Below are positions 44,486-64,000 of a stretch of 64,000 nucleotides of DNA, one piece after another; the stretch's first letter is position 1, and every line of letters starts with the position of its first letter. The notes beneath the pieces are model-generated. The model made no database searches. It saw only the letters and a program-made list of their open reading frames with translations, and was not told the DNA's origin. This DNA comes from Sphingopyxis flava (lineage in GTDB: Bacteria > Pseudomonadota > Alphaproteobacteria > Sphingomonadales > Sphingomonadaceae): the NCBI RefSeq assembly GCF_900168005.1, contig NZ_FUYP01000007.1, positions 1-64,000 of the forward strand. Direction: 5' to 3'. The position numbers were made by a program, and so were the translations under genes.

Positions 44486-44536
44486 GCGCTAGCCCTACCC
44501 TATAGATACATAAGGATAACATAAGGAACCCATATC

Positions 44537-47213: not shown

Positions 47214-47243
47214 TAGTCATCATAAGAGGACAATCCTTCTGAG

Positions 47244-47270: not shown

Positions 47271-47306
47271 TGAACCATTTTCTGGGCCCGCCTGTGAAGA
47301 GAGTTT

Positions 47307-47603: not shown

Positions 47604-47737
47604 TTGAGCGCCTTCTACGCCGCGCGCGGGTCGAGCGTCAGCGTTATGGTGAGGTGTCGGTGGACACTTTGGCCCTCCTGGATGCCGAGGGGTATCTCTT
47701 GGAGTACCTAGAGGACGACCTTGAGAGCGGCGCTTAA
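47600..47737 (+). CDS. Very small phage protein, unknown function
   Basis: 45 residues from GTG 47600 (overlapping the previous stop) to TAA 47735-47737, too short for a usual ORF list. The N-terminus is basic (MIERLLRRARVERQRYGEVS) and the C-terminus acidic (LLEYLEDDLESGA). A GGAGAG sequence precedes it, and tight coupling on both sides argues that it is translated. Confidence 0.6.
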   Translation: MIERLLRRARVERQRYGEVSVDTLALLDAEGYLLEYLEDDLESGA

Positions 47738-48131: not shown

Positions 48132-48136
48132 TCTAA

Positions 48137-48817: not shown

Positions 48818-48844
48818 GGAAATCGCGGACGTCACCTGTCTGAC

Positions 48845-49255: not shown

Positions 49256-49659
49256 GGAAGATCACCGATATTGTGATCCACTGTTCAGCCACCCCCGAAG
49301 GCAAGGATTTCGGCGCGGCGAGTATCGACCGCTGGCACAAGGAGAGAGGGTGGGCCGGGATCGGCTACCACTATGTGGTCAAACGGGACGGTACGATTGA
49401 GCCGGGACGACCGCTGGAGAAGGCGGGAGCGCACGTCGCGGGCCATAACGCCAACTCGGTCGGCATCGTCTACATCGGCGGGCTGGCCAAGGACGGCAAG
49501 AAGGCCAAGGACACCCGGACCCCCGAGCAGAAGACCGCACTGCGGACAATCGTAGCAGAGATGCGCCGTCGCTTCCCTGAGGCGCGCGTTCTCGGACACC
49601 GGGACTTCCCCGGCGTTCGCAAGGACTGCCCCTCGTTTGACGTGAGGACCCAACTGTGA
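49252..49659 (+). CDS. N-acetylmuramoyl-L-alanine amidase (T7 lysozyme-like)
   Basis: 135 residues. IVIHCSATPEGKDFGAASID, WHKERGWAGIGYHYVVKRDG, HVAGHNANSVGIVYIGG and GHRDFPGVRKDCPSF follow T7 gp3.5 throughout. Zinc ligands are the His of VIHCSA, the His of GHRDF and the Cys of KDCPSF. In T7 the protein cuts peptidoglycan and also inhibits the phage RNA polymerase; the second role is plausible here because a T7-type polymerase is present. No signal peptide, so it needs a holin. Confidence 0.93.
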   Translation: MRKITDIVIHCSATPEGKDFGAASIDRWHKERGWAGIGYHYVVKRDGTIEPGRPLEKAGAHVAGHNANSVGIVYIGGLAKDGKKAKDTRTPEQKTALRTIVAEMRRRFPEARVLGHRDFPGVRKDCPSFDVRTQL

Positions 49660-49793
49660 ACGACCCAATCGTCCTTCTTCTCGCCGCTTTGGCGGTTCTG
49701 ATCCCCGTCGCGGTGTGGCCCGTCGCGGTGTGGGGTGGACTGCGTTTAGTCGAGAAAATCCTCGACGAGATCGCAGACACGAGTGGTCTGTAA
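49656..49793 (+). CDS. Very small membrane protein after the amidase
   Basis: 45 residues from GTG 49656 (overlapping the amidase stop) to TAA 49793. One hydrophobic helix (IVLLLAALAVLIPVAVWPVA) followed by an amphipathic EKILDEIADTSG tail. Coupled to the amidase gene, it is a candidate holin or pinholin, but single-helix proteins are hard to assign. Confidence 0.5.
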   Translation: MNDPIVLLLAALAVLIPVAVWPVAVWGGLRLVEKILDEIADTSGL

Positions 49794-49804
49794 CTGGAGC
49801 AGCT

Positions 49805-49915
49805 ATGAGCACTCTCTTAGAGTACGCAGCCGCCTTCCTTGGCGGCGTCGTGGTGACACTCGGCGTCCTCGGCTTCATGCTTTGGCGTACAGCTAGAAAC
49901 CTGAGGCTCTGGTGA
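49805..49915 (+). CDS. Very small membrane protein
   Basis: 36 residues from ATG 49805, preceded by GGAGCAGC. One transmembrane helix (AAAFLGGVVVTLGVLGFMLW) with a basic C-terminal end (RTARNLRLW). Its stop overlaps the next ATG. With the preceding gene it forms a pair of single-helix proteins right after the amidase, so a lysis role is possible. Confidence 0.5.
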   Translation: MSTLLEYAAAFLGGVVVTLGVLGFMLWRTARNLRLW

Positions 49916-50214
49916 TGCGTCGTCGATCCACATGGGTTGAGATCGTCGCGTCTCACCTGGCCGTCCGTGGTCATATCTCCGAAGGTTCGGCGCTGATCGA
50001 GTACGGACGCTTCCGTCTTGGTGACGCGATTTACCGCCTACGCAACGAGAAGGCGCACCTCCTGCCGGAAGGCATGGAGATCGTGACCATCCACAAACAA
50101 GATACGCAAGGAAATCGCTATGGCGAATATCACCTCGTCCCGCAGGGGACGCAAAGGACCGCGAACCAAATCATTCAAGCCCGATCCGAAGCGGCTGAGG
50201 CCGCTGCGCTATAA
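49915..50214 (+). CDS. Phage winged-helix-like protein
   Basis: 99 residues from ATG 49915. STWVEIVASHLAVRGHISEG, YGRFRLGDAIYRLRNE and KQDTQGNRYGEYHLV look like a small winged helix-turn-helix, of the kind seen in phage helix-turn-helix domain proteins. It may bind DNA. The last third is Ala/Gln-rich. It overlaps the next ORF by 95 bases in another frame. Confidence 0.55.
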   Translation: MRRRSTWVEIVASHLAVRGHISEGSALIEYGRFRLGDAIYRLRNEKAHLLPEGMEIVTIHKQDTQGNRYGEYHLVPQGTQRTANQIIQARSEAAEAAAL

Positions 50215-50317
50215 GACCGCCCTCGGGCTGGCCTTTGAGGGGCTCATGGAGCGGCTGGGTATCAACAGTCCGCCCGCCCCCACCAAGGTGATTGCCGCCT
50301 GGGAAGGGACGCGGTGA
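50120..50317 (+). CDS. Small basic phage protein overlapping its neighbour
   Basis: 65 residues from ATG 50120, with AAGGAAA upstream. Very basic N-terminus (SRRGRKGPRTKSFKPDPKRL), then an amphipathic helix (KTALGLAFEGLMERLG). Ninety-five bases overlap the previous gene in a different frame, but the downstream half is alone, which supports that it is used. No family recognised. Confidence 0.5.
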   Translation: MANITSSRRGRKGPRTKSFKPDPKRLRPLRYKTALGLAFEGLMERLGINSPPAPTKVIAAWEGTR

Positions 50318-50320
50318 GGC

Positions 50321-50578
50321 TTGGTTTTGGAATTGTATAACCCTGAGCGGCTCGCAAAGTTAATCAATGCGGGCCGCGCGGCGGACCTGATTGTCCGCGT
50401 TGCCGAGCTTGAGACCCTCCGCAAAGAGGCTGAGGCCTCTCGCCCGCTCCTACTGAACTTCCCAGGAAACCCGGAGCCGGTCGGCGTTCCTAACACCATC
50501 GCCGGCACGGTCATCGGAGCCATCATAGCCGCCTTGGAGAAATCCCTGGAGGATACACTAGCTGAAACACGAAACTGA
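50321..50578 (+). CDS. Phage protein, unknown function
   Basis: 85 residues from TTG 50321. AKLINAGRAADLIVRVAELE and a C-terminal helix (VIGAIIAALEKSLEDTLAE). It overlaps the probable CTG start of the primase gene by 17 bases. No family recognised; the start is not certain. Confidence 0.5.
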   Translation: MVLELYNPERLAKLINAGRAADLIVRVAELETLRKEAEASRPLLLNFPGNPEPVGVPNTIAGTVIGAIIAALEKSLEDTLAETRN

Positions 50579-52241
50579 TAGCGCGTTGCTCCACAAGGGG
50601 CCGTGCGATTTCTGTGGAAGCTCTGACGCCAGAGCCCATTATGACGATGGCCATAGTTTTTGTTTCGCCTGCCCTGAAGAGACCGCGTATCAGCCCGCAG
50701 ATGACCAGCAGCGCGAGGCGTCAGCGCCTTTGCCCAGCGATCTACTCCGAGGAGACCACGCGCCTCTCCGCGCTCGCGGCCTGACCCTAAAGACCGTCGA
50801 GCAATACGACTATCGGGTCGGGACACACAACGGCGAGACAGTGCAAATTGCCCCCTACCACGACGCCTCGGGGCGGGTGGTGGCGCAGAAGGTTCGCCCT
50901 CGCGACAAGAGCAAGATGCACTGGCGTGGCAAAAAGAAGTCGGCGCTGCCACTCTTCGGCCAGTCTAAGTGGAAAGCCGGTGGCCGGATGATCGTGGTCA
51001 CCGAAGGCGAGCTGGACGCGATGAGTGCGGCGCAAGCCATGGGGAACACCTGGCCTGCCGTATCCATCCCTGACGGCGCCCATAGCGCTGCCAAGGCGGT
51101 CGCCAAGGCGGCTGACTGGTTGGAGAGCTTTGAGCGGGTCGTGTTCATGTTTGACATGGACGACGATGGCCAGGAGGCGGCTGTAGAGGCTGCTGCGATC
51201 ATCACCCCCGGCAAGGCCTATATCGCTTCGCTTCCCCTCAAGGACGCCAGTGATATGCTCCAGGCGGGCCGCGCGAAGGAGATCGTCAACGCTGCGTGGA
51301 ATGCCCGAGAGTACCGCCCTGACGGTATCCTCGACGTGGCCGCGCTGCGTGAGAAGGCGATCCTTCCTCCGTCATATGGCCTGCCGTTTCCCTTCCCGTC
51401 GCTCACTAAGGCGACTTATGGGATACGTCGCGGGGAGCTCATCGGCTACGGCGCGGGGGTCGGGACCGGTAAGACGACGCTGTTCAAGCAGCTCATGCTT
51501 ACCACGATGTTCCCCGACATGATCGAGCCGCATGATGACCTGCCGGTGACCCTTACAGGGCCGCGCAAGGTTGGGGCGATCCTCCTGGAGGAAAACCCGG
51601 TCAAAACTTTGCGGACCCTGGCGGGCATGAGGATTGGCGTTCGCGTCCACGTCCCTGGCGTGGAGTTTGATGAGGCCGCCCTCCGTCACGCTATCGACGA
51701 GATGGACGGGCTCTTCTTTCCCTACAATCACTTTGGGGCGAAGGACTGGGCCAGCGTCAAAGAGCGCATCCGCTACATGGTGTTGGGCTTGGGCATCAAG
51801 GATATCTTCCTGGACCACCTGACCGCACTCATCGCGCACGAAGAGGACGACCGCAAGGCGCTCGACGCCATCATGTCGGACCTCGCGTCGATGGTGGAGC
51901 AGTACGACTTCACGCTGCATTTCATCTCACACCTTACCACTCCGAAGGGCACCGCCCACGAGGAAGGCGGGCGTGTGTTGGAAAAGCACTTCACCGGGTC
52001 ACGGGCAATCGCTCGCTGGGCCCACAATCTTTACGCGCTGGAGCGCGATAAACAGGACCCCGACAGCCCCACGATCTTCCGCATCCTGAAGGAGCGCGAG
52101 ACCGGTGACGCCACTGGCGTGACCTTCGGGCTGGCCTACGACCGAGACACCGGTCTGTTGCGAGAGGTCGAGCTAGAGGAGAATAGATTTGGGTTCACCG
52201 ACCAATCCGCTGGAGGGTCAACCGAAGACGAGGATTTCTAA
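50562..52241 (+). CDS. Primase-helicase (T7 gp4-like)
   Basis: About 559 residues if the CTG at 50562 is used, 551 from TTG 50586. An exact GGAGG at 50548-50552 sits 9 bases before the CTG, and the extra residues (KHETDSALLHKG) align with the N-terminus of T7 gp4 just before its zinc site, so I prefer CTG. Zinc ribbon CDFCGSSDARAHYDDGHSFC, TOPRIM VVTEGELDAM and MFDMDDDGQ, helicase Walker A GAGVGTGKTT, HEEGGRVLEKHF, and an acidic tail ending DEDF. It primes and unwinds DNA for phage replication. Confidence 0.93.
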   Translation: MKHETDSALLHKGPCDFCGSSDARAHYDDGHSFCFACPEETAYQPADDQQREASAPLPSDLLRGDHAPLRARGLTLKTVEQYDYRVGTHNGETVQIAPYHDASGRVVAQKVRPRDKSKMHWRGKKKSALPLFGQSKWKAGGRMIVVTEGELDAMSAAQAMGNTWPAVSIPDGAHSAAKAVAKAADWLESFERVVFMFDMDDDGQEAAVEAAAIITPGKAYIASLPLKDASDMLQAGRAKEIVNAAWNAREYRPDGILDVAALREKAILPPSYGLPFPFPSLTKATYGIRRGELIGYGAGVGTGKTTLFKQLMLTTMFPDMIEPHDDLPVTLTGPRKVGAILLEENPVKTLRTLAGMRIGVRVHVPGVEFDEAALRHAIDEMDGLFFPYNHFGAKDWASVKERIRYMVLGLGIKDIFLDHLTALIAHEEDDRKALDAIMSDLASMVEQYDFTLHFISHLTTPKGTAHEEGGRVLEKHFTGSRAIARWAHNLYALERDKQDPDSPTIFRILKERETGDATGVTFGLAYDRDTGLLREVELEENRFGFTDQSAGGSTEDEDF

Positions 52242-52992
52242 AGCCGCGGACCACGCTGATGACTGCGACTGGCATCTGGACCAATACCCCTGGGAGTGCA
52301 CCTGTGGTGCCGCGTGGGCGGAATACAGACCACGCCGAGACGGAGAACCGCCTGCGGATTACGTTCCCGGCAGTATGGTCGATGTTCGTAAAAACCGGCT
52401 CACCAGGGACTGGGTACGCATTAGTTGGGAACCTTATTGGAACTCGCGCGCCGTCTATCGTTACCAGCCCGCCCCTCCGAAAGGCACAGTGGGTGTGGAC
52501 GCGCTTCGCGAACAAATTGACCCGTCAATTACTGACTGGGGCGAGCCGCTGCCCGCTTCTCCGAAAGGCACAGTGGGTCTGGACGGCTCAATCAGCGGGC
52601 GGCGCGCGAGCGTTGTGATCATGGATGATATTGAGGCAGATAACCGCTCATCGCTTCCTGAGGATGACGGTGACCGCCTAGCTTACCCGATGTTCGACGG
52701 GCTACTGGCCTACTTCCCCAACGCCCTCGCAGAGGTCGCCATGGTGTCCATGATTGGAAACCAGCAGCACAATCCTGGCCAGCCCATGCACTGGGCGCGA
52801 GGCAAGTCTACTGACCACGCCAACAAGGCCGTCCGCCATCTGGTTGACCACGGCAAGCGTGACGCCCGCGGCGTCCGCCACACGGCTCGTGCTGCCTGGC
52901 GCATCCTGGCGCTCCTCCAAGAGGAGATCGAGCGGGACGAAGGCCGGCCCCTGTCTCGTGCATCGCGCGCCCCGGAGCCTGATGAAGCGTGA
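52189..52992 (+). CDS. Phage protein with C-terminal dATP/dGTP-diphosphohydrolase-like helical domain
   Basis: 267 residues from TTG 52189 with GAGGAG upstream, inside the primase 3' end. The first 60 residues hold CDWHLDQYPWECTCGAAW, a possible zinc-binding stretch. Two copies of PPKGTVGVD/SPKGTVGLD follow. Residues about 155-255 (LLAYFPNALAEVAMVSMIGN, HWARGKSTDHANKAVRHLVD, ARAAWRILALLQEEIE) resemble the N-terminal domain of phage dATP/dGTP diphosphohydrolase proteins (DUF5664 type). The activity is not established. Confidence 0.6.
   Translation: MGSPTNPLEGQPKTRISKAADHADDCDWHLDQYPWECTCGAAWAEYRPRRDGEPPADYVPGSMVDVRKNRLTRDWVRISWEPYWNSRAVYRYQPAPPKGTVGVDALREQIDPSITDWGEPLPASPKGTVGLDGSISGRRASVVIMDDIEADNRSSLPEDDGDRLAYPMFDGLLAYFPNALAEVAMVSMIGNQQHNPGQPMHWARGKSTDHANKAVRHLVDHGKRDARGVRHTARAAWRILALLQEEIERDEGRPLSRASRAPEPDEA
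52475..52584 (+). repeat. In-frame 84-base-spaced direct repeat
   Basis: CTCCGAAAGGCACAGTGGGT occurs at 52475-52494 and 52559-52578; each copy is followed by one differing base and TGGACG. The copies are exactly 84 bases apart (28 codons), so the encoded protein repeats PKGTVG(V/L)D. It suggests a recent internal duplication of a linker. Confidence 0.8.
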
Positions 52993-53285
52993 TGCTCTAC
53001 CTCGCTCTCGCGGGGGCGAGCTTCGTCTTCGTGTTCCTGAAGGCCTTCCAGCAACGGAATGTCGCCTTCGATAACTACATCGCAGTGATGCCCATCAGCA
53101 TCATGATGGCCTCCGTAGAGGTCTTCACGATCACCAAGGTGGCCGCCGCAGGGTGGCAGATAGGCGTGGTCCTATCTGTTGGCACGGCCAGCGCTTTGGG
53201 CGCCATCTCCGCGATGCACCTCCACAAATGGCTCTTTGCCGATGGCGGCCCGCGCCGCTTCTTCAACAAGGAAAAGACTGAATGA
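52992..53285 (+). CDS. Phage membrane protein, holin candidate
   Basis: 97 residues from ATG 52992 (overlapping the previous stop). Three hydrophobic stretches: LYLALAGASFVFVFL, YIAVMPISIMMASVEVF and WQIGVVLSVGTASALGAISA, with a charged C-terminal end (NKEKTE). Size and topology fit a class I holin, but similar proteins are widespread in phages with no proven role. Coupled to the next gene by a 4-base overlap. Confidence 0.55.
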   Translation: MLYLALAGASFVFVFLKAFQQRNVAFDNYIAVMPISIMMASVEVFTITKVAAAGWQIGVVLSVGTASALGAISAMHLHKWLFADGGPRRFFNKEKTE

Positions 53286-53587
53286 ACATTCGGGGTATCA
53301 TTTCCCGCATCATCGCCGCCGTCCTCGGCTTCATCCGCCCCTCGGTCGCGAAGATCGTCAAGCAGTTTGAGGCCATCCAAGCGCGGCTGGATAAGCTGAT
53401 TGCGCTGCACGAGCATAAGCTCGACCGCATCGACATTGATCTTGAGGCCTCAAAGGCCCGAGCGCGCGCCGCCGCAGAGCGTGAAGAAGAGCGCCGCTTC
53501 GGACTGTATCAGGACCGTGACCGGCGCGTCAGTGAGCTCGAACGAGCCCAGCGCGTTCGCGATAAGATCAACAGCCTCATTAGTTGA
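53282..53587 (+). CDS. Phage coiled-coil protein with N-terminal amphipathic helix
   Basis: 101 residues. An N-terminal hydrophobic/amphipathic helix (IRGIISRIIAAVLGFIRPSV) is followed by a long charged coiled coil (HEHKLDRIDIDLEASKARAR, AEREEERRF). It may attach to the membrane next to the protein of the preceding gene. No family recognised. Confidence 0.6.
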   Translation: MNIRGIISRIIAAVLGFIRPSVAKIVKQFEAIQARLDKLIALHEHKLDRIDIDLEASKARARAAAEREEERRFGLYQDRDRRVSELERAQRVRDKINSLIS

Positions 53588-53700
53588 TCCCTGTCCCCGC
53601 CATATTTGGATGAACTAGAGGGGGAAAGCTCCGCGGAATTAACCTTTCGCCGCGTCGAGCCGGGGCCCCTCTGCCCACATTCCTACAGATTGGAGGTCGG

Positions 53701-55743
53701 ATGCTAGTCTTCGACACCGAAGGTGATGGGTTCGTGGAGGACATGTCTAAGCTCCATTGCTTGAACATTATCGACCGAACCACCGGAGCACGGCTCCGCT
53801 TCAATGACCACCCTGAACTAGCCGCACGTCCCCCTGACGGTTCCCTTGAGGAAGGCGCAAGGCTCCTTATGGAAGCCGAGGAGATCGGCGGTCACAACAT
53901 CATCGCCCATGATATTCCAGCCATCCAGAAGATTTTCCCTTGGTTCGCCCCTAAGGGCCGCGTGAAGGACAGCTTAGTCTACTCGCGCGTTATCTGGACG
54001 GACCTCAAGGATATCGACTTCAAGGCTATACGGCGCCGCAAGCGCCCGCCTGAGTTTGAGAAGCGTCACCTGATAGGGCGACACTCGCTGGAAGCCTGGG
54101 GTTATCGTTTGATGGCCTATAAGGGTGACTATGGCCCGATGATGGAAGAGCGCGGGAAGGCGTTAGGCCTGACCGGCGATGACCTTCTGGCCTACGTCTG
54201 GGGCACCTTCAACCCCGAGATGGATGATTATTGCGAACAGGACTGCGAGGTCACGGTCAAGCTCTTTGAGAAGATCGAAGACACCGGCTACTCTGAGGAG
54301 AGCCTGGAGCTAGAGACCCAGGTAGCCAAGATCATCGACATGCAGAGGGCCTATGGGGTCCTCATCGACGTGCCTGCCGCGGAGCGGCTGGCCGGAGAGA
54401 TGACCGCGGCGCTAGCCTCGCTGGACGAGCAGCTTCGTGCGGCTTTTCTGCCATGGTATGCGCCGGTCGTCGAGAAGGGGCGGGTGGCTGTCCGTCAGCC
54501 CTCTCGTCGCTCCTGGATCAAGGGCGTAACGTCCGACGACGAGATCGTGAAGTTCCCTGTAGACGCGGGCGCAAGCTACTGCCCGGTGAAGCTGGTGGAG
54601 TTCAAGGCGTCGTCCCGCGACCACATCGCTGACAGGCTGAAGAAGCTCTACAGTTGGCAACCCCAGGAGTTCACGCCATCGGGCAAGCCGAAGGTGGACG
54701 AAACCACCCTAGACGGCCTCGACTTCCCACAGAAGCGGCTCCTGCTGGACTATCTAGTGATAGCCAAAAGCCTGGGGACGCTGGCTACCGGGGACAAGTC
54801 GATCCTGAAGTTCGTTGGCAAAGACGGGCGGATGCACCCGAAGGTCAACTCCAACGGGGCGGTGACGGGCCGCATGACGCACTATGACCCCAACGTAAAC
54901 TTCCCCAAGGTGAAACCAGGGGAAGACGGTAAGCCTCTCCTCGGGGTGGCAGGCGGCTTCGGTGTCGAGCTGCGGTCGCTAGTGACCGTCCCCAAGGGCC
55001 GAAAACTTGTTGGCGTAGACGCCGAGGGCTTAGAGGACCGGATGCTCGCCCACCACATGGGTCGGTATGATGGCGGGGCGTACACCGATACCCTTCTAAA
55101 TGGTGACAAGAAGAAGGGGACCGATAACCACTCGATCACGACGCGGCTCATTGGGCTGAACCTCCGCGATAGCGGCAAGCGCTGGCGCTATGCCTACCTC
55201 TACGGCGCCGGCAACTGGAAGCTGGGTGCTATCCAGTATGACGACATGACTGAAGAGCAGCGCGAAGCGTTCAACGCCAAGTACCCTCCCGGCAAGCCGA
55301 GGAATGACGCCCTCACGCGCTTGGGCGCGGCGGGCAGGAAGAAGATCGAAGTCGGCTTCCCAGCCCTCGGAGCCCTTCAGGCCAAAATCCAGGAGAAGGC
55401 GCGGTCTGGATCGCTTCGCGGTCTGGACGGGCGCAAGCTGCACGTTCGCGGACAGCACTCGGCGCTCAACACACTCCTCCAGGGAGGTGGCGCCATTGTG
55501 ATGAAGAAGGCGCTGGTCCTGGCTTACGAGGCCTTCACGGCCAAGGGTTGGGAGTTCGGGCGCGACTACGCATTCGTGCTCAACGTCCATGACGAGTTCC
55601 AGATTGAAGCAGAGGAGCATATTGCGAAAGAGATCGGGGCGATTGCCGCCGATGCCATCAGGCAAGCCGGCGAAGCCTTCAACCTCCGCTGCCCGCTCGC
55701 GGGTAGCCAAGATATCGGGGACAACTGGGCTCTTACGCATTGA
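53701..55743 (+). CDS. DNA polymerase I family replicative polymerase (T7 gp5-like)
   Basis: 680 residues (T7 gp5 is 704). Proofreading exonuclease at the N-terminus: ExoI FDTEGDGFVED, ExoII GGHNIIAHDIPAIQK. Polymerase motif A VGVDAEGLEDRMLAHHMGRY, motif B RDSGKRWRYAYLYGAGNWK, motif C NVHDEFQIEAEEH; the end FNLRCPLAGSQDIGDNWALT matches T7. The T7-like thumb insertion that binds host thioredoxin appears to be present (segment ending YCPVKLVEF..SSRDHIADRL), so thioredoxin may be its processivity factor. GGAGG precedes ATG 53701. Confidence 0.96.
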   Translation: MLVFDTEGDGFVEDMSKLHCLNIIDRTTGARLRFNDHPELAARPPDGSLEEGARLLMEAEEIGGHNIIAHDIPAIQKIFPWFAPKGRVKDSLVYSRVIWTDLKDIDFKAIRRRKRPPEFEKRHLIGRHSLEAWGYRLMAYKGDYGPMMEERGKALGLTGDDLLAYVWGTFNPEMDDYCEQDCEVTVKLFEKIEDTGYSEESLELETQVAKIIDMQRAYGVLIDVPAAERLAGEMTAALASLDEQLRAAFLPWYAPVVEKGRVAVRQPSRRSWIKGVTSDDEIVKFPVDAGASYCPVKLVEFKASSRDHIADRLKKLYSWQPQEFTPSGKPKVDETTLDGLDFPQKRLLLDYLVIAKSLGTLATGDKSILKFVGKDGRMHPKVNSNGAVTGRMTHYDPNVNFPKVKPGEDGKPLLGVAGGFGVELRSLVTVPKGRKLVGVDAEGLEDRMLAHHMGRYDGGAYTDTLLNGDKKKGTDNHSITTRLIGLNLRDSGKRWRYAYLYGAGNWKLGAIQYDDMTEEQREAFNAKYPPGKPRNDALTRLGAAGRKKIEVGFPALGALQAKIQEKARSGSLRGLDGRKLHVRGQHSALNTLLQGGGAIVMKKALVLAYEAFTAKGWEFGRDYAFVLNVHDEFQIEAEEHIAKEIGAIAADAIRQAGEAFNLRCPLAGSQDIGDNWALTH

Positions 55744-55777
55744 CCTTATGATACAACATAGAAGTGGCGGCTGACGA

Positions 55778-56227
55778 ATGCGTCGAGTGAAATCACGCCT
55801 ACGCCTGGAGCCCAGTGTTAAGCAAAAAACGAGAGCTTCAGTAAAACGCGCGACTCCCCAAAAGCCACGCAAGGTCTACGAGAAAGACCCCAGAGCTGAC
55901 CTTTTCTGGAACGCCAAGCGCCGAGCCCGAAAGGCCGGCATCCCCTTCACCATAACCATGGATGACATTGTGATCCCGAGCCACTGCCCAGTGCTCGGTA
56001 TCCCGGTCTTTCGCATGACGGGCTCGAAAGGGGGCGGGGATAACTCGCCCTCACTCGACAAGATCAACCCCAACCTGGGGTACGTGAAGGGAAACGTGAT
56101 CGTCATTTCAGGGCGGGCGAACCGGCTGAAGGCCGACGCCTCAATCAAGGAGCTGCGCGATATCGCCAGCTTCTACGCAACGCTGCGCCGCGGGGTCCGC
56201 GTGACCGGCGCTAAGGAGATTACATGA
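55778..56227 (+). CDS. HNH-type endonuclease-like protein
   Basis: 149 residues, basic N-terminal half. The C-terminal half reads VIPSHCPVLGIPVFRM, then SPSLDKINPNLGYVKGNVIV, then ISGRANRLKADASIKELRDI, the pattern of small phage HNH/endonuclease VII-like proteins that follow polymerase genes. It could be a free-standing homing endonuclease or a DNA-processing enzyme. Overlaps the next gene by 4 bases. Confidence 0.7.
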   Translation: MRRVKSRLRLEPSVKQKTRASVKRATPQKPRKVYEKDPRADLFWNAKRRARKAGIPFTITMDDIVIPSHCPVLGIPVFRMTGSKGGGDNSPSLDKINPNLGYVKGNVIVISGRANRLKADASIKELRDIASFYATLRRGVRVTGAKEIT

Positions 56228-56496
56228 CAACGCGAGCTGAAGTCTACGCAGCCCTCGATACGGAGCGCGCCTATCAGGACGCCTTATGGACACCAGAGAC
56301 CACGATTAGTGGCGGGCTGCATACAGTCACCGAGTGGCTTGTCTACATGGACAGTTATCTTCGGGAGGCGTTTGACCAAGTTTCACGCGGCCCAGACCCT
56401 GCGGCAACGCTGGCGGCGCTAAACACCGTCAGGAAAATAACAGCCATGGGTGTCGCGTGTATGGAGCAAAATGGTGCTCCGGTTAGGAAATCGTGA
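56224..56496 (+). CDS. Conserved small phage protein, unknown function
   Basis: 90 residues, soluble, helical. AEVYAALDTERAYQDALW, VTEWLVYMDSYLREAFDQ and TVRKITAMGVACMEQNGAP are features that recur in many phage proteins of unknown function. Stop overlaps the start of the spanin gene. Confidence 0.65.
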   Translation: MTTRAEVYAALDTERAYQDALWTPETTISGGLHTVTEWLVYMDSYLREAFDQVSRGPDPAATLAALNTVRKITAMGVACMEQNGAPVRKS

Positions 56497-56915
56497 TGCC
56501 TGACCTCCCCTACCGCAAGGTGGCCGGGATTTCCCTTTTCGTGATCGGGGCTTTGGCCCTGTTGTGGTTCTTCTTCATCCGCCCAGAGGCGGCCCTGAAG
56601 GACGCAGCGATTAACCGCGCGGACCGTACAGTGGCCGAGGCCCAAACCGAGGCGGCCAAGGATACCGTCCGCATCATAGTGGACCATAACGCCACCGTAG
56701 AGACCATCCAAAGTAGAACCGAGGTTACCAATCGTGACATTCAATCCGCTCCGGGAGCTGCGCAGGAAATTGATCCTGCTGTTCACGCTGCCGGTATTCG
56801 CGCTCTCTGCCTGCACCACGGTCGTGACGAGCCTACATGCGCCGTCCTGCTTCACCGAGATGGTGGAAGCGAGCGGGCTCCAGGAGCCGACACCTCACGC
56901 GCCGTTACCCAGTGA
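56496..56915 (+). CDS. Rz-like inner-membrane spanin
   Basis: 139 residues from ATG 56496. Short cytoplasmic N-terminus, one membrane helix (GISLFVIGALALLWFFFI), then a long helical periplasmic part (AALKDAAINRADRTVAEAQT, EAAKDTVRIIVDHNATVETI) and a variable C-terminal end. This is the i-spanin layout. An Rz1-type lipoprotein starts inside it in another frame (56734), the classical embedded spanin pair that fuses inner and outer membranes at lysis. Confidence 0.8.
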   Translation: MPDLPYRKVAGISLFVIGALALLWFFFIRPEAALKDAAINRADRTVAEAQTEAAKDTVRIIVDHNATVETIQSRTEVTNRDIQSAPGAAQEIDPAVHAAGIRALCLHHGRDEPTCAVLLHRDGGSERAPGADTSRAVTQ

Positions 56916-57087
56916 GCCCTCAGTGGGCGCCTGGGTTACCTACGGGAACACTGAGGGCGGCCAGCTAGATATCGCCAACGCTGACAAGGTGGCCATCGTC
57001 GGGATTGGCAAGACGTGTGACCGGTGGGCCAACGAGGCCAAGAAGAAGCTGGAGAAGCGTGGTCTCTTTAAGAGGATATTTGGATGA
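56734..57087 (+). CDS. Rz1-like outer-membrane spanin lipoprotein, partly embedded in Rz
   Basis: 117 residues in a second frame. It starts 182 bases before the Rz stop and runs 172 bases beyond it. Signal sequence with lipobox: RRKLILLFTLPVFALSAC, so lipidation at about C27. The mature part has a Pro-rich stretch (PTPHAPLPSEPSVG), typical of Rz1, and then a longer domain than classical Rz1. Overlaps the next gene by 4 bases. Confidence 0.8.
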   Translation: MTFNPLRELRRKLILLFTLPVFALSACTTVVTSLHAPSCFTEMVEASGLQEPTPHAPLPSEPSVGAWVTYGNTEGGQLDIANADKVAIVGIGKTCDRWANEAKKKLEKRGLFKRIFG

Positions 57088-57296
57088 GCCGAGCATCATA
57101 TATCTATCTACTTGGCCCTGATGGATACGGGGACCACTACGGGTTCACGGTAAAGCACGAAGCGCAGGCCTTCGCCCGCCGCGCAATGCTTGACGGGTAT
57201 AATCTTCCCGATGTTGTATCACGCATTCCTGATGGTGGTTCACGCACAGGCAGGGCCCCGAAGACCATGACCTTAGAAGAGTTTATCAACTCTTGA
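57084..57296 (+). CDS. Small phage protein, unknown function
   Basis: 70 residues. YIYLLGPDGYGDHYGFTVKH, then AQAFARRAMLDGYNLPDVVS. Soluble. No family recognised. Coupled on both sides by 4-base overlaps. Confidence 0.6.
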   Translation: MSRASYIYLLGPDGYGDHYGFTVKHEAQAFARRAMLDGYNLPDVVSRIPDGGSRTGRAPKTMTLEEFINS

Positions 57297-58075
57297 GCCT
57301 CACCCTCCTAATCGACGCCGACCTAATCGCCTACGTTGCCTCAGCGGCCACACAAAAGGCCTACGACTTTGGCGATACGGTCGCCGTCTGGCATGACTTT
57401 GAGGAAGCCAAGACCGCAGCCGACTGGGAAATCCAGAAGATCATCTCCAGGTTGGACCCGGATGACGTGACCTTGTGTTTCTCGGACGACTTCAACTCAT
57501 TCCGCAAGGATCGGATTGACCCGACCTATAAGGGAAACCGGGTGGGCGAGAGGCCTGAGGAGCTCTACCCGCTCAAGGAGTGGCTTAAGGGAACCTACGA
57601 GAGCGCTTATCGGCCCGCACTGGAAGCCGATGACGTCATGGGGATCATCGCTACGGACCCTTCGCGATCCGATGAGCGCATCATTGTGTCAGCCGACAAG
57701 GACATGATGACCATCCCCGGTCTCCTGTATCGCCCGCAACTGGACACAGACCTGCGCCGGAAACCCCCTATCCTGACCATAACCCCCCTTGAGGCTATCC
57801 GCTTCCATTTCTGGCAGGCCATCGTGGGGGACCAGACTGACGGCTATCCTGGCGCCCGAGGTGTCGGCAAGCTGTCCCCCTGGGCCCAGGACGTGCTTGA
57901 GGCCGAGAGTGAAGAGGAGGCCTGGGATGAGGTCCTAGGCGCTTTCTCGTCTGTAGGGCTGACCGAAGAGGACGCCGTGCGGCAGGCCCGCCTGGCCCGC
58001 ATCCTACAGCATCAGGACTATGACGGAACCCGCCCGATCCTCTGGCTTCCGCCTTATATTCCAGAGGTTTGTTAA
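57293..58075 (+). CDS. 5'-3' exonuclease (T7 gp6-like)
   Basis: 260 residues from TTG 57293 (overlapping the previous stop). LLIDADLIAYVASAA, CFSDDFNSFRKDRIDPTYKG, ALEADDVMGIIA, IIVSADKDMMTIPG and VGDQTDGYPGARGVGK follow the acidic metal-binding pattern of the FEN/T7 gp6 family. It removes primers and degrades host DNA in T7. The stop lies within promoter 3. Last gene of the replication block. Confidence 0.92.
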   Translation: MSLTLLIDADLIAYVASAATQKAYDFGDTVAVWHDFEEAKTAADWEIQKIISRLDPDDVTLCFSDDFNSFRKDRIDPTYKGNRVGERPEELYPLKEWLKGTYESAYRPALEADDVMGIIATDPSRSDERIIVSADKDMMTIPGLLYRPQLDTDLRRKPPILTITPLEAIRFHFWQAIVGDQTDGYPGARGVGKLSPWAQDVLEAESEEEAWDEVLGAFSSVGLTEEDAVRQARLARILQHQDYDGTRPILWLPPYIPEVC

Positions 58076-58098
58076 TTTAGTCTCCCTACTCGGAGACC
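58072..58098 (+). promoter_or_regulatory. Phage RNA polymerase promoter 3 (T7-type)
   Basis: TTAATTTAG then TCTCCCTAC then TCGGAGACC. It overlaps the exonuclease stop codon, and shares CTAC-TCGGAGACC with promoter 2 and TTAATTTAG with promoter 1. One core change (CTCCCTA for CTCACTA). It would start the late (fibre, head) transcript, but an intrinsic terminator lies 44 bases downstream. Confidence 0.8.
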
Positions 58099-58141
58099 CA
58101 GAAGCTCCCCGTTCTACAAACGGTATAACAAGAAAACTCCG

Positions 58142-58176
58142 AGGCCTCCTGCCGTCTGCCGCAGGGGGCCTTTTTT
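58142..58176 (+). terminator. Intrinsic terminator between replication and structural blocks
   Basis: AGGCCTCCTGC and GCAGGGGGCCT (58142-58152 and 58161-58171) form an 11-bp stem with one G-U pair, followed at once by six T. It is the strongest intrinsic terminator in the window. In T7 the comparable terminator lies after the capsid gene; here it precedes the tail fibre and portal. Confidence 0.88.
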
Positions 58177-58305
58177 CGTTCCCAGCCTGTGGGTGAAATT
58201 AAATCCAAGGACGCGGGTTACAGACACCTTCCCGACCGATGTGACGGACATGAATGACACTCATGGCGGGTTAATCGGTCAATTATGATGCGTTGAGGAT
58301 ACTTA

Positions 58306-59898
58306 ATGAGCACAATTGCCCAGTACACTGGGGATGGCGCGACCAAGCAATTTGATATTACTTTCAGCTACAGAGATAGTGAAACTGTAAAGGTTAGCGT
58401 TGACGGTGTGGCGACAGCTTACACTTTCGTCAACCCCAGTCGCGTTGAGCTTGACGTCGCGCCGAGCTCGGGGGCTGAAGTCCGGGTCTACCGTGAGACT
58501 AACGTCGCCACTCCTGTGGTGGATTTTGAAGATGGCGCAATCATCCGCGCCTCCGACCTTGATGAAGCTGTCGGCCAGGTCCGTGACAGAGCGGAAGAGC
58601 TTGGCAGCGAGACTTCGGCGCTCAGTGCTCGGGCACTATTGATGCCCGCAGGTGAGACCGCAGCCACCCTCCCAGACCAAGCATCGCGGAGCGGTAAGTT
58701 TCTAGGCTTTAGTCCAATTGATGGCGCTCCCGTGGCTGCCGAAGGTACGAATACAGCCGATTTGCTTCGGCCTGACCTCGCTTCCACCGACAGTGATAAG
58801 GGTGCTGCGTTGGTCGGCGTTGAAGGCGGCGGCACAGTTCAGGACGCATTATCCGGTCTCCCCGATAGTCTGCACTATCAGGCGCCGACGAGTTCGAACG
58901 TCTCCGGTTTTGATATGGATTTCCGCGCAGGCCAAGGAGGAACATCGCCCGTAGCCGGTACAATCCACGACTACACCGACGCTAGTCGGACGTGGCAGCT
59001 CGATAAAGTCGGCGGCAGCATCGGTACGGGTGGCTATGTGCTGGGGCTTCGGCGCGCGAATAATCATATTCGCCGCCCCGACAAGCCAGGGACCTATATC
59101 AGCGAGGCAGGCTTCCTGCGCTGCTCCTACGACCGGTTCACCCAGACCGCCGAAGTCACCGGCTCGATCAGTGGCAATGTCCTCACGGTCACGGACGTGG
59201 CCTCAGGCGCGCTCGCGGTTGGTAGTTTCGTTGAGGGCTCCGGGGTTGAAGAAGGGACGACGATTGCCGCGCTTGGCACCGGCACCGGAGGGACTGGTAC
59301 CTACACTGTTGCGGTTCGGGGAAATTCCGCCGCCACACAGACGGTCGCAAGCACGACGCTGACCGGTAAGACGAAATCGGAAGTTTTGGCATTCTACGTT
59401 GATCAGACTGGCGGCTTCGGCTGGTCTACCGATCCGGCCAAGATGACGACAGCAAAGGCTAACGGAGCGAGCTACGCTTTCCAGTTGACCGCCAGCAACG
59501 AGCAGCAGTTCCTCCTATCGCTGACCTCGGCATCAGGTCAGGTGCTGACAATCCAGGACGCGGTAAGCGGGACGCGCACCGACTTCGTTAGTCCGGCTGG
59601 CCAGACCAGCGGAATGCGCTTTCAGGCAACGGCGGGCGGGATCGACCTCGCGCCTGCGACGAACCAGCCGATCACTATGCGAGGCCGCGCTGTCCCCGAC
59701 GCCAACAACAGCTACTACCTCGGGACGTCAGCGGCAAACTGGCTGCGCGTCTATGCAGATGCTTACTATGTCGGCGGCACGAAGGTACTGGGGGCGCAGC
59801 AGGCCGCCATTGCGGACAGTGCTGGAGGCGACGAGCAGACTAAGATCAACGAGATACTCGCAGCAATGCGCGCGCACGGACTGATCGCAGCAACATGA
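58306..59898 (+). CDS. Tail fibre protein with T7 gp17-type N-terminal domain
   Basis: 530 residues. Residues 1-100 (QYTGDGATKQFDITFSYRDS, VVDFEDGAIIRASDLDEAVG) are the T7 fibre N-terminal, tail-attaching domain. The middle is beta-rich with Gly/Thr repeats (TDVASGALAVGSFVEGSGVE, LGTGTGGTGTYTVAV), and the end (DEQTKINEILAAMRAHGLI) is common in phage fibre proteins. It should decide host adsorption. In T7 the fibre gene is near the right end; here it stands before the portal. Confidence 0.85.
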   Translation: MSTIAQYTGDGATKQFDITFSYRDSETVKVSVDGVATAYTFVNPSRVELDVAPSSGAEVRVYRETNVATPVVDFEDGAIIRASDLDEAVGQVRDRAEELGSETSALSARALLMPAGETAATLPDQASRSGKFLGFSPIDGAPVAAEGTNTADLLRPDLASTDSDKGAALVGVEGGGTVQDALSGLPDSLHYQAPTSSNVSGFDMDFRAGQGGTSPVAGTIHDYTDASRTWQLDKVGGSIGTGGYVLGLRRANNHIRRPDKPGTYISEAGFLRCSYDRFTQTAEVTGSISGNVLTVTDVASGALAVGSFVEGSGVEEGTTIAALGTGTGGTGTYTVAVRGNSAATQTVASTTLTGKTKSEVLAFYVDQTGGFGWSTDPAKMTTAKANGASYAFQLTASNEQQFLLSLTSASGQVLTIQDAVSGTRTDFVSPAGQTSGMRFQATAGGIDLAPATNQPITMRGRAVPDANNSYYLGTSAANWLRVYADAYYVGGTKVLGAQQAAIADSAGGDEQTKINEILAAMRAHGLIAAT

Positions 59899-59928
59899 TC
59901 GCCAATTCAAACCCCCTGAGAAAGTCTA

Positions 59929-60138
59929 GTGACAAAGTTACCGCTAACAACGCCAGAGCTCATTGACTTTCTCGATGAGCTCATACCGGAGCCGGCGCCC
60001 CTCCCTGGGGACAGCCATGAAGCCGTCATGTACGGCGCAGGCCGTCGCTCTGTGGTGCGGCAGTTGCGGGCTTTGCAGGAGGGCGGCGTTCCCGAACCAT
60101 TAAAACAGAAACGAGGTGCAGGGCGTGTGCATCGTTAA
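59929..60138 (+). CDS. Small phage protein upstream of the portal
   Basis: 69 residues from GTG 59929. LPLTTPELIDFLDELIPEPA, then a helix with YGAGRRSVVRQLRALQE. Short proteins of this shape are found near the head genes of other T7-like phages; function unknown. Overlaps the next gene by 14 bases. Confidence 0.6.
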   Translation: MTKLPLTTPELIDFLDELIPEPAPLPGDSHEAVMYGAGRRSVVRQLRALQEGGVPEPLKQKRGAGRVHR

Positions 60139-60328
60139 GACGCCAAAAATCAAGGAGTCCACCACTCCTGGGAAAGACAAGCCTCTTCCGATCCTGCGTA
60201 ACACGTTGCTCGACGGTATCGACCCTTCGACGCAAGCACTAAGGATCGGGCGGAACAATCTCAGGATTGACCGTGCCCCGCCCACCGCCTCCACGGCATT
60301 GCGGATAGCGAGTGGCCCAGAAGGCTGA
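60125..60328 (+). CDS. Small virion-type protein upstream of the portal
   Basis: 67 residues from GTG 60125, with ACGAGG 8 bases before it; a GTG at 60116 is in frame but poorly placed. CIVKTPKIKEST, then LPILRNTLLDGIDPSTQALR and IGRNNLRIDR. The pattern recurs in small proteins of podoviruses that lie just before the portal gene. Its stop overlaps the portal start by 17 bases. Confidence 0.6.
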   Translation: MCIVKTPKIKESTTPGKDKPLPILRNTLLDGIDPSTQALRIGRNNLRIDRAPPTASTALRIASGPEG

Positions 60329-61874
60329 CGGGCTGAGGTCAGGTGAGGCGAAAACCCGATATGAGCAGCTAAAGAGGGCGCGTGAGAATGTTCTTACGCA
60401 GGCTCGCGAAGCTGCACGTCTCACCATTCCGGGGCTCGTCCCCGCGGAGGGGGCTACAGACCCCCACCAAGTTTCAGAGCAGCCGTACACCGCCAATGGC
60501 GCGCGTTTCGTCAACAACCTCTCAGCTAAACTGCTGCTGGCACTGTTCCCCCCTGAGCGACCATTCTTCCGTCTCGATATTGGCCCTGACGTGGCCGAGG
60601 AGATGGGGGCGGCTTATGGAGAGGCCCAGGAGAAGCTGGCGGATATCTCACGGCGAGCCATGGTGCTTGCCGAGGATAGCGCCTCGCGCACAATCTGGAT
60701 GGAAACCCTCCGTCACCTTGTTGTGGCAGGGAACGCCCTTGTGTATCAACCCGATGATGGGACGCAGATGCGCATGTGGCGCATTGACCAGTTTGTGGTG
60801 GTTCGCGGTCGTGATGGTCTCCTCCAGGAGGCGGTCATCAATGACAAAATCTACCCCAGCGAGCTCAGTGAAGAGGTCCGCGCGGCCTGCAACGTCAAGT
60901 ACGATCCCAGCAAGCCGGACCAGAACGATCCTGTAGACCTATACACCCATATCTACCTCAACGGTGACCGTATGGAACACTATGAGGAGATCAATGGGAT
61001 TGAGGTCCCCGAAAGCCGCGGCTCGGTGGAGCGCAAGAGCGGCGGATGGCAGGCCCTTCGGTGGCAGGCTGTCCCTGGGTCAGATTACGGTCGTGCCTAT
61101 GTGACCGAGTACGCTGGCGACTTCCTAAGCCTGGAAGACGCCCACAGCTCCATCCTGAAGTTCGCCATTGAGGCTGCCCGCATCCTCCGCTTCGTGGACC
61201 CCAACGCGGGCATCGACGTTGAAGAGGTGACGCGCGCTGAGAGCGGCGATTTCCTGACAGGCATGATTGATCGTGTCCAGACGCTTCAGCTCGACAAGAA
61301 CCAGGACTTCCAGATCGTCTGGAACCAGGCACAGAGCATCGAGCGCAGGCTCAGCCAAGCATTCCTGATTGCCTCTAACGCCATCCGCGATGCGGAGCGT
61401 GTGACGGCAGAGGAAATCCGAGCCATCGCGCAGGAGCTGGAAGACAGCCTCGGCGGGACCTACACGGTCCTCTCTGCTGAGGTTCAGCGGCCTTACGCGA
61501 GCCGCCTTCTCTATATCCTGTCGAAACAGAAGAAGGCACCTAAGCTCCCAGAAAGCGTCTCAGTGGTCATCGTGACGGGCTTCAACGCCCTCGGACAGAA
61601 CCACGAGAGTGCGGCCCTCAAGGGCTGGCTAATGGACGTCAGGGATGCGCTAGGCGAGGCATGGATCAGTCAGAACCTGGATGGCCAGGCTGTCGCATTA
61701 CGCCTCGGTGTAGGCCGTGGTGTGGTTGACGTAAGCAAGCTCATCAAAGCTGCTGAAGATGTGGCTGAGGACGCCCAGGCGGGCGCCTTGACACAGGCCG
61801 GTATCAGTGCCGCCCCTCAGATTGCCAAAGGTGTAATCGACGCGGCATCGGCGGCTAATCAAGAAGGAACCTAA
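60312..61874 (+). CDS. Head-tail connector (portal) protein, T7 gp8-like
   Basis: 520 residues from GTG 60312 (T7 gp8 is 536). GEAKTRYEQLKRARENVLTQ, ARFVNNLSAKLLLALFPPER, QAFLIASNAIRDAERVTAEE and SVVIVTGFNALGQNHE match the T7 portal layout. It forms the dodecameric ring for DNA packaging and tail attachment. Stop overlaps the next ATG. Confidence 0.93.
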   Translation: MAQKADGLRSGEAKTRYEQLKRARENVLTQAREAARLTIPGLVPAEGATDPHQVSEQPYTANGARFVNNLSAKLLLALFPPERPFFRLDIGPDVAEEMGAAYGEAQEKLADISRRAMVLAEDSASRTIWMETLRHLVVAGNALVYQPDDGTQMRMWRIDQFVVVRGRDGLLQEAVINDKIYPSELSEEVRAACNVKYDPSKPDQNDPVDLYTHIYLNGDRMEHYEEINGIEVPESRGSVERKSGGWQALRWQAVPGSDYGRAYVTEYAGDFLSLEDAHSSILKFAIEAARILRFVDPNAGIDVEEVTRAESGDFLTGMIDRVQTLQLDKNQDFQIVWNQAQSIERRLSQAFLIASNAIRDAERVTAEEIRAIAQELEDSLGGTYTVLSAEVQRPYASRLLYILSKQKKAPKLPESVSVVIVTGFNALGQNHESAALKGWLMDVRDALGEAWISQNLDGQAVALRLGVGRGVVDVSKLIKAAEDVAEDAQAGALTQAGISAAPQIAKGVIDAASAANQEGT

Positions 61875-62164
61875 TGAGCAAGAAACCCAGCCAGACGGCG
61901 CCCGCAGAGGCGCCTGAGGCTCCCACAGAGGCTGCCTCCGAGGTAGCCCCTGAGGTTGCCCCTGAGGCCAGCCCCGAGGCTCCCGCAGAGGATACCCAGG
62001 AAGACGCCGCAGAGGCACCTGAGGCCGCCCCAGAGAGCACAGGACGTGTCGTAGAGGATCACACCGAGGAACCCTTCCCGGAAAGCGAAAGCTCGCCCTA
62101 CGACCGCAAGCCCAAGGTCGAACGCACCGAACGTAACGGGCGTGTCATTGAGACCTATCTGTAA
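61874..62164 (+). CDS. Ala/Pro/Glu-rich phage protein
   Basis: 96 residues, first two thirds a low-complexity run of PEA/PEV/APE units (EAPEAPTEAASEVAPEVAPE). The last 30 residues are normal (SSPYDRKPKVERTERNGRVI). The DNA contains repeated GAGGC(T/C)CC units. Probably disordered; function unknown. It lies between portal and scaffold. Confidence 0.6.
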   Translation: MSKKPSQTAPAEAPEAPTEAASEVAPEVAPEASPEAPAEDTQEDAAEAPEAAPESTGRVVEDHTEEPFPESESSPYDRKPKVERTERNGRVIETYL

Positions 62165-62176
62165 GGGAGCCGCCAA

Positions 62177-63064
62177 TTGGCAGACGAATTGAACAATGAG
62201 GAAGGCCAGAAGCCCGCAGCGGGTGAAGGCCTTAGCGATGAAGTTGCGCGCCTTGCGGCTATTGGCCGTGGCGAGCTCGACCCTAACGCTTCCGTAGAGG
62301 ACCCAGACGACTCCCAGAAGGGAGTTCCTGAGCGCCCTGCGGACGTCCCTGAGAAATTCTGGGATGCTGAGAAGGGCGAGATGCGCGCAGACGCTATCCT
62401 CAAGAGCTATCTGGAGCTCGAAAAGAAGTCCAAGAAGGCAGCCGAAGAGGCCGCCGCCAAGGAGAAAGCGGAGAAGGATAAGGGCAAGAAGGGTGAAGGC
62501 GAGGGCGAAGAGCCCGCTGCGCTCGACCCTGGTCTCCTCACGTCCGCGCAGGAAGAGTGGGCCACCTCGGGTGACCTCTCGGAAGAGACCCGCGAGAAGA
62601 TTATAGCGGGCGGCATTCCTGAAGAGCTCCTGGACACCTACTTGGAGGGCGTTAAGGCTCTCTCCGCATCTCTCACTGCCAAGGTCTATGAGGCCGCTGG
62701 CGGGGAGGAAGATTACAAGGCCGCGGTTGAATGGGCACGTGAGAATTGGACTGACGCGAAGGTCACCAAGTTCGACGCGGCGCTGGATGACCCCGATCTT
62801 ATGCCGGTGATGGTCAACGCTCTGATGAGTGACTACCGCGCAGTTTCGCCCGGTGAGGGCAAGCTGACGCGCCAGCAAGGTGGGGCGCCTACGGGCGACC
62901 TCTACTATGATGCCGAAGAGTTCACCAAGGACTTGGCGGCGGCTGATGCAAAGAATGATGCTCTCGCGCGCCGTAAAGCCGTCGAGAAGCTCCAACGGTC
63001 CAAGAAGGCTGGCACCCTGAAGCACGTAACTCCGCGCTCCGGGGCTGCCAAACTTCTAGGCTAA
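62177..63064 (+). CDS. Capsid assembly scaffolding protein (T7 gp9-like)
   Basis: 295 residues from TTG 62177 with AGGGAG upstream. Highly charged and helical: SYLELEKKSKKAAEEAAAKE, then KFWDAEKGEMRADA before it, and VYEAAGGEEDYKAAVEWARE. Position between portal and capsid, acidity and low complexity fit T7-type scaffolds, which guide procapsid assembly and leave. Confidence 0.88.
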   Translation: MADELNNEEGQKPAAGEGLSDEVARLAAIGRGELDPNASVEDPDDSQKGVPERPADVPEKFWDAEKGEMRADAILKSYLELEKKSKKAAEEAAAKEKAEKDKGKKGEGEGEEPAALDPGLLTSAQEEWATSGDLSEETREKIIAGGIPEELLDTYLEGVKALSASLTAKVYEAAGGEEDYKAAVEWARENWTDAKVTKFDAALDDPDLMPVMVNALMSDYRAVSPGEGKLTRQQGGAPTGDLYYDAEEFTKDLAAADAKNDALARRKAVEKLQRSKKAGTLKHVTPRSGAAKLLG

Positions 63065-63083
63065 TAGAACACCCGAGGCCGTC

Positions 63084-63110
63084 AGATACGGCACACTACG
63101 GGTTCAGACC
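63084..63110 (+). promoter_or_regulatory. Possible fourth phage promoter before the capsid gene
   Basis: AGATACGGCACACTAC then GGGTTCAGACC. It keeps CACTAC and a G-run at the right place, and upstream bases resemble T7 (ATACG). It matches promoters 1-3 less well, so it is a candidate only. T7 has its strongest promoter at this location. Confidence 0.35.
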
Positions 63111-63162
63111 ATCGCGAGGTCTGACAGCGCACAGGGGCGCCCGCTGGTCACTACGGCGCCCC
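63104..63162 (+). other. Two hairpins in the capsid leader
   Basis: Stem TCAGACC (63104-63110) / GGTCTGA (63118-63124), loop 7; then GGGGCGCC (63134-63141) / GGCGCCCC (63155-63162), loop 13. No T-run follows either. They could be RNase III-type processing sites or mRNA stabilisers ahead of the most expressed gene. Confidence 0.5.
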
Positions 63163-63286
63163 ACACTACCCGAATACCAAAGACAATCCCCGTACCGGGA
63201 CCGGCTGAGGCCGACAATCCCAACGCCAGCGGTGGACCTGAGGAAAGGGACACAAGAAACCCAACCTCCAATAATGATAAGGAAAA

Positions 63287-64000
63287 ATGGCTAATAGCAA
63301 CCCTTCCCGCCCCGGTCTTCGTGAGGGCGGATCGGACGCGCTTGAGCTGATGCTCGACGTCCGCGGTGGTGAAGTTCTCACCGCGTACAACGCAGCGGTC
63401 GTGATGCACGATAAGCACAAGACCCAGTCGCTCAAGGGCGCCAAGTCGGTGAAGTTCCCGGCATTCTGGAACGCCACCGCCGAATATCACACCCCTGGCG
63501 TTGAAATCCTCGGTGGGTCGATCCCGTCGCAGGATATCACCGTCACTCCTGACGACAAGCTCATCAGCGCGGTCTTCGTGGCTGACGTCGATGAAGCGCT
63601 GTTCGATGTTGATGTTCGTTCTCCGTATACCGAAGCCATCGGTCGCGAGCTCGCAGAGCACTATGACCGCAACGTGATGCGCGCCATTCTGGTCGCTTCG
63701 CGCGCGGGTGCGCTCTTTACGGGTGACCAGGGCGGCGGCTCGCTCACTGACGCTAACTTTGCATCGAGCGCTACGGCGCTGTTCGATGGCATCAGCGAAG
63801 CCAAGGAGCTCATGGACACCAAGCGTGTCCCTGTGGACAGCCAGCCGGTCTATGGGGTTCTCCCCACGGCCCAGTGGTACATCATGGCTCGCTCGGATCG
63901 GAACCTGAACCGCGACTATAACGGCGGCCAGTCGGATATTCGCCGTCACGTCTTGACGACTATTGACGATGTTCAGATCACCAAGTCGAACGTCGCCAAC
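63287..64000 (+). CDS. Major capsid protein (T7 gp10-like), cut by window end
   Basis: First 238 codons from ATG 63287, with AAGGAA upstream. SNPSRPGLREGGSDALELML, AYNAAVVMHDKHKTQ, KFPAFWNATAEYHTPGVEIL and EAIGRELAEHYDRNVMRAIL show the HK97-like T7 capsid family. The frame is open to the last base; T7 gp10A is 345 residues, so about 100 residues lie outside. Confidence 0.93.
   Translation, partial: MANSNPSRPGLREGGSDALELMLDVRGGEVLTAYNAAVVMHDKHKTQSLKGAKSVKFPAFWNATAEYHTPGVEILGGSIPSQDITVTPDDKLISAVFVADVDEALFDVDVRSPYTEAIGRELAEHYDRNVMRAILVASRAGALFTGDQGGGSLTDANFASSATALFDGISEAKELMDTKRVPVDSQPVYGVLPTAQWYIMARSDRNLNRDYNGGQSDIRRHVLTTIDDVQITKSNVAN

Follow-up and report, generated by a model that had tools for sequence, protein, structure and literature searches.

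The structural genes of a T7-like prophage of Sphingopyxis flava are entered through a predicted phage promoter and, a short distance beyond it, a hairpin with a T tract; the two elements are conserved as a pair among related phages, and no other forward promoter copy was found downstream. The pair probably serves to throttle or to guard the genes that make the particle. The window analysed here is a 64,000 nt stretch of the S. flava genome (contig NZ_FUYP01000007.1, nt 1–64000), for which an initial annotation had read the promoter and hairpin in three possible ways: attenuation, an obstacle to host polymerase, or the production of a small phage RNA. The conservation of the pair at the entry to the structural operon points to a real attenuator or roadblock at this place.

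Judging by gene content, the final third of the window holds the left half of an integrase-bearing, T7-like (autographivirus) prophage, apparently dormant in the bacterial chromosome. All of its genes named here for the window are on the forward strand. The gene for a single-subunit, T7-type RNA polymerase (nt 44631–47213; PF00940, E 6e-113; phrog_414, E 4e-242) is followed by an amidase gene, then by replication genes, and these by an exonuclease gene in the position of T7 gene 6 (nt 57293–58075, its limit given by the ORF end; phrog_107, E 2e-53; PF02739, E 4e-10). On the far side of the hairpin are genes for a tail fibre (nt 58306–59898; PF03906, E 2e-17), a small conserved protein of unassigned function (nt 59929–60138; phrog_4970, E 2e-8), the portal or head-tail connector (nt 60312–61874; PF12236, E 9e-62) and a head-assembly (scaffold) protein (nt 62177–63064; phrog_1052, E 1e-25). 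Beyond the window the contig carries more structural genes, a T7-type terminase, an integrase at about 86.1–87.3 kb, and a gene with a weak match to a transcription regulator (phrog_9665, E 9e-7) that found no match in a Pfam search. The tail-fibre gene, which separates the hairpin from the small gene at nt 59929, appears to have been moved or inserted; L008 is among the relatives in which a small gene is directly 3' of the hairpin, and by eye a gene related to the one at nt 59929 seems to be the first past the hairpin in several relatives.

Three forward copies of a 28-nt direct-repeat family (D3) are present in the window. P1 (nt 44458–44485) is upstream of the RNA polymerase gene, P2 (nt 47243–47270) is directly 3' of it, and P3 (nt 58071–58098), the late copy, lies across the exonuclease gene end so that the stop codon falls within it. 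Each was recovered by the repeat search, an exact pattern and a matrix scan, and P3 also by a 22-mer search, in which the 22-mer from nt 58078 occurred once in the window at up to 3 mismatches and in 0 of 100 shuffles. In the whole 4.16-Mb genome the exact pattern finds only these three copies. Several like copies in phase with the phage gene blocks are what is seen with T7-type late promoters, and P1–P3 are predicted to be promoters for the phage single-subunit polymerase. In matrix scans of the window prophage, of Caulobacter phage S2B and of a phage recorded as Mycobacterium phage jiawei, the structural region showed no further forward copy (highest remaining score 11.6, versus 31.6–40.2 for the promoter copies). 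Barring an unrecognised promoter, phage polymerase that transcribes the structural genes, whether from P1, P2 or P3, should therefore pass the hairpin. A fourth, diverged copy is found past the terminase gene on the minus strand, facing back towards that gene (contig about nt 77,532–77,557; L004:13532–13557), with a score of 28.2 versus 39.3 for P1–P3. No minus-strand copy like it was detected in S2B or jiawei, and it could be a source of antisense RNA or have a role at the genome end. P3 also contains an inverted repeat, GTCTCC-N6-GGAGAC (nt 58080–58097), which was rejected as a functional element because it is missing from P1 and P2.

The hairpin (nt 58141–58172, forward strand) and its T tract (nt 58171–58176) resemble an intrinsic terminator in pairing and fold, and have counterparts in relatives. 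The stem pairs nt 58143–58152 with nt 58161–58170 around a loop of 8 nt, with one A-U and one G-U pair below. The fold of nt 58137–58176 reaches -23.6 kcal/mol (z -4.49), and none of 200 shuffles was as good. Class I (intrinsic) terminators take this form, a stable, GC-rich hairpin with a U tract immediately behind it, and a terminator is accordingly the predicted element. The initial annotation had given '11-bp stem plus six T', which counts one T twice, a trivial slip that leaves the hairpin and T tract as real features, and its gap of 44 bases was borne out, the end of P3 and the stem being about 44 nt apart. Aligned to the T7 promoter, P3 would presumably start transcription near nt 58092, about 49 nt before the hairpin. 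A stop at the T tract would then give a leader RNA of 85 nt (nt 58092–58176, forward strand, both ends being predicted), the fold of which has a z of -3.36; 2 of 200 shuffles folded equally well. Over nt 50000–64000, a simple terminator scan gave no excess (12 matches, shuffle mean 11.6), so the significance of the hairpin rests on its own strength and on the relatives. Hairpins as such are not rare, as a scan for them lists others that are mostly weaker or in coding regions, the forward-strand matches numbering 8 in nt 44064–64000 of the window, 9 in S2B and 4 in jiawei. An Rfam search assigned no family (best, STnc100, 17.8 bits versus a gathering score of 47).

A DNA-level search with nt 57900–58700 gave no match among phage records, and a first scan of genome contigs with the polymerase as query found no relative. 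At the protein level, an exonuclease 66% identical to that of the window is present in a Novosphingobium genome (L131), and the polymerases of S2B and jiawei are 50–55% identical to that of the window prophage. Both of these phages have three promoter copies at the matching places, and in each a hairpin with T tract separates P3 from the gene that follows. S2B (L005) has, in addition, a hairpin with T tract at reverse-complement coordinate 8772, after the polymerase gene and just upstream of its P2 (8808).

For a wider comparison, 133 loci from exonuclease-based searches were scored, and the 14 with an exonuclease score of at least 250, including the window itself (L003), were treated as the near set. 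A loose test (a terminator-like hairpin no more than 260 nt past the exonuclease stop) was passed by 13 of the 14 near loci and by 36 of all 133, which come in part from a search represented by its best 80 of 578, so the trait belongs mainly to the near branch. Under a strict test (within 200 nt, cut-off -18 kcal/mol) the hairpin was found at 12 of the 14 near loci, or 11 of 13 without the window; shuffled sequences gave a mean of 1.25 (maximum 3; 20 sets), the reverse strand 0/14, and control windows 2/338. The two strict-test misses are L133, which has a long hairpin by eye, and L067, where another gene directly follows the exonuclease gene. Of 63 distinct loci with a portal gene (again partly from the best 80 of 578), a strong terminator lies between the exonuclease and portal genes in 16, and in 15 of the 16 it begins 40–96 nt after the exonuclease stop. 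The hairpin sequences vary between relatives while their position is constant, and in near and mid relatives they are GC-rich and short, except in L058.

A second sample was chosen by polymerase rather than exonuclease. Of 79 polymerase loci, 35 were picked by hand, and since 5 yielded no exonuclease, 30 contigs remained, 19 of which have the hairpin (shuffle mean 2.8, maximum 5, in 10 sets; reverse strand 4/30; control windows 8/360). Seven contigs repeat the first set, either as the same records (L290, L295, L304, L306) or with the same sequence (L289, L300, L305); among the 23 new ones the count is 13, with the reservation that in the second sample L299 and L313 have the same hairpins as L291 and L309, and that L297 repeats L296. 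The 11 contigs that failed are of several kinds. By eye, the hairpin is present but its T tract poor in L296/L297 (identical), L311 and L312, while L314, L315 and L318 have no hairpin and L310 is ambiguous; the algorithm seems to have overlooked L300, L307 and L316.

In 21 of these 30 contigs the sequence at the P3 site matches a promoter beside the contig's own polymerase gene, a pass being scored when either flank of that gene beat all of 20 shuffles, so that two or three passes are expected by chance. Hairpin and promoter match occur together in 16 of the 30. That P3 follows the polymerase promoter of its own genome while the layout is kept indicates that promoter sequences have drifted together within genomes and the P3–hairpin layout has stayed. 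Individual cases are less clear. L008/L290 has the hairpin and no clear promoter match, and L246/L306 passed an earlier promoter test (17 vs 15) and failed the later one (17 vs 17). The earlier test had matched 3 of 8 loci (L107, L052, L246), with the limit that for L131–L133 the stretch searched may stop short of the promoter; L239 matched in the later tests only. In 20 hand-typed pairs of P3 and flanking copy, the A of the GGAG start of P3 is missing from 16 flanking copies, which is a hint only, as at least 2 of the comparisons were misplaced.

In 15 leaders, with start sites placed by eye and the L133 hairpin by hand, the distance from start site to hairpin is 29–61 nt (mean 44.9, sd 7.6), and that from exonuclease stop to start site is 11–58 nt (mean 19.9, sd 13.0). 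The former distance varies less, and the hairpin thus seems tied to the promoter and not to the upstream gene. L133 is unusual in having two promoter-like copies in tandem 3' of the exonuclease gene, followed by its long, hand-placed hairpin about 35 nt after the second. Several candidate elements of the leader were rejected. An antiterminator formed by RNA alone finds no alternative fold, the terminator stem having a probability of 0.97–1.00 in the 14 leaders scored (L133 was not among them). Abortive RNAs pair no better with the hairpin of their own phage (-6.43 kcal/mol) than do those of other phages (-6.28) or shuffles (-6.34), leaving no signal of antitermination by this route. The motif TCTCC between start site and hairpin, present in 8 of 12 leaders (shuffles: mean 3.5, maximum 9), is not convincing, and a conserved 5' stem-loop is not claimed, the mean z over 15 leaders being only -1.06.

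The site of P3 is that of the T7 promoter phi6.5, which also directly follows the exonuclease gene and precedes the structural genes, and a promoter is annotated there in K11 as well. In contrast to the window prophage, T7, K11 and Keila have no hairpin-plus-U terminator at that place. T7 has an RNase III site, R6.5, within the phi6.5 leader, and carries further late promoters, whereas none was found in the window prophage. The order of late promoter, terminator and late genes is shared with phage lambda, in which Q lets polymerase read through the pR' terminator (PMC6266700). Lambda differs in relying on host polymerase together with Q, while the window prophage has a single-subunit phage polymerase and a promoter of that type, without a known factor. 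In form (GC-rich hairpin, U tract) the window hairpin is like T7 Tphi and other class I terminators, but Tphi follows the capsid gene and the window hairpin is in a leader. Eight enzyme–terminator pairs in one study show the T7, T3 and SP6 polymerases stopping partly at class I hairpins (12–86%), the T7 enzyme stopping 54% at Tphi (PMC11347151). S2B and jiawei each have a second hairpin directly after the capsid gene, and a hairpin at contig nt 64658 may be its counterpart after a putative capsid gene in the window prophage. LUZ100, a T7-like Pseudomonas phage with temperate features, is comparable in its integrase upstream of the polymerase gene, its MarR-like regulator and its phage promoter directly upstream of the polymerase gene; it differs in having eight phage promoters versus three forward ones in the window prophage. 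Its map places a terminator directly after the capsid gene, and the sections of the report at hand describe none right after a late promoter (PMC10134795). In JG068 the predicted terminators precede the DNA-binding module and follow the capsid gene (PMC3765740). A search of the open-access literature, covering few subscription papers, retrieved no description of a terminator directly after a T7-like late promoter.

The reading we prefer, and to which we give about an even chance, is that the hairpin acts within the late leader as a partial terminator, throttling late transcription, freeing a short RNA and halting polymerases that come from upstream. The phage single-subunit polymerase would start at P3, in place of phi6.5, and some 49 nt on would meet the hairpin-plus-U terminator ahead of the first structural gene. 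Some polymerases would stop there and release an RNA of about 85 nt; the remainder would read through to produce structural-gene mRNA, so that the hairpin would set the level of late transcription. It would also catch host polymerase coming from upstream, as well as phage polymerase from P1 and P2. Partial stopping by the phage polymerase, with throttling and shielding as what selection keeps, is what we infer from these features. A partial terminator is preferred because the published stopping by T7, T3 and SP6 polymerases is itself partial, and the further hairpin after the capsid gene in S2B and jiawei implies that these polymerases should regularly read through strong hairpins. Against this, stopping at class I hairpins varies so much between polymerases that the efficiency here is unpredictable, and a terminator ahead of genes for abundant structural proteins would be costly unless the promoter is strong.

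The main rival, tentative but deserving some weight, supposes that, in the prophage or at an early stage of infection, the hairpin bars host RNA polymerase from the structural genes, and that it leaves the phage polymerase mostly unaffected, a role whose counterpart in T7 is that of the early terminator TE. The strength of the hairpin with its T tract suits this role, and a search for integrase makes shielding in lysogeny plausible. It covered 17 records and matched 8, of which 4 are whole bacterial genomes and hence uninformative; among the 13 virus records the matches were L008, L107, S2B and jiawei, which together with the window prophage make a link of the hairpin to lysogeny plausible. 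Nine virus records gave no match, including the 36.8-kb L052 contig that has both promoter and hairpin, and these count against the role, weakly so because most of them are fragments. A barrier to host polymerase could sit upstream of P3, yet the hairpin is placed at a narrow distance downstream. That narrow spacing, and an order of parts matching lambda pR', terminator and late genes, would also be expected of a regulated gate, where transcription from P3 would end in a short RNA, itself perhaps active, unless a phage factor or signal allows readthrough into the late genes. Such a gate is unlikely, given leaders with no alternative antiterminator fold, no pairing signal from abortive RNAs and no Rfam family. 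Equally unlikely is its broader form, by which these temperate T7-like phages subject the entire structural operon to a regulated terminator close to the promoter, by means of a hypothetical antitermination factor or signal, the abundant leader RNA being a by-product or a regulator.

It is quite improbable that the hairpin acts instead in mRNA processing or stability, being cut by RNase III or protecting the late mRNA in the manner of T7 R6.5, with the T tract incidental. The matching promoters of T7 and K11 do lack a U-tract hairpin, and L296/L297, L311 and L312 keep a hairpin in spite of a poor T tract, as noted by eye; most hairpins found end in a T run, however, although the search itself demanded one, and the short, GC-rich hairpins of near and mid relatives (L058 apart) in our judgement suit a terminator over an RNase III site. 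A chance neighbourhood of promoter and hairpin, which the lack of excess in the generic scan would permit, is very improbable in view of the position-specific conservation relative to shuffles, control windows and the reverse strand.

Control of late genes in T7-like phages is usually ascribed to the number and strength of promoters, and a conserved terminator within the late leader would add a layer of control in the temperate T7-like branch. It would also provide matched promoter–leader–terminator sets for many single-subunit polymerases, and bears on the quietness of lysogenic T7-like prophages. In this connection, a 13-nt direct repeat occurs at nt 44136 of the window and nt 87302 of the contig, and may, tentatively in view of its shortness, be the attachment core that marks the prophage ends. 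If so, integration separates the integrase and regulator genes at the right end from the polymerase gene at the left end, which might help to silence the prophage. A minor observation concerns jiawei (L006; OR464703.1), the record of which names a Mycolicibacterium host; its closest kin by polymerase search are the window prophage and Caulobacter phage S2B, and the host label may merit checking.
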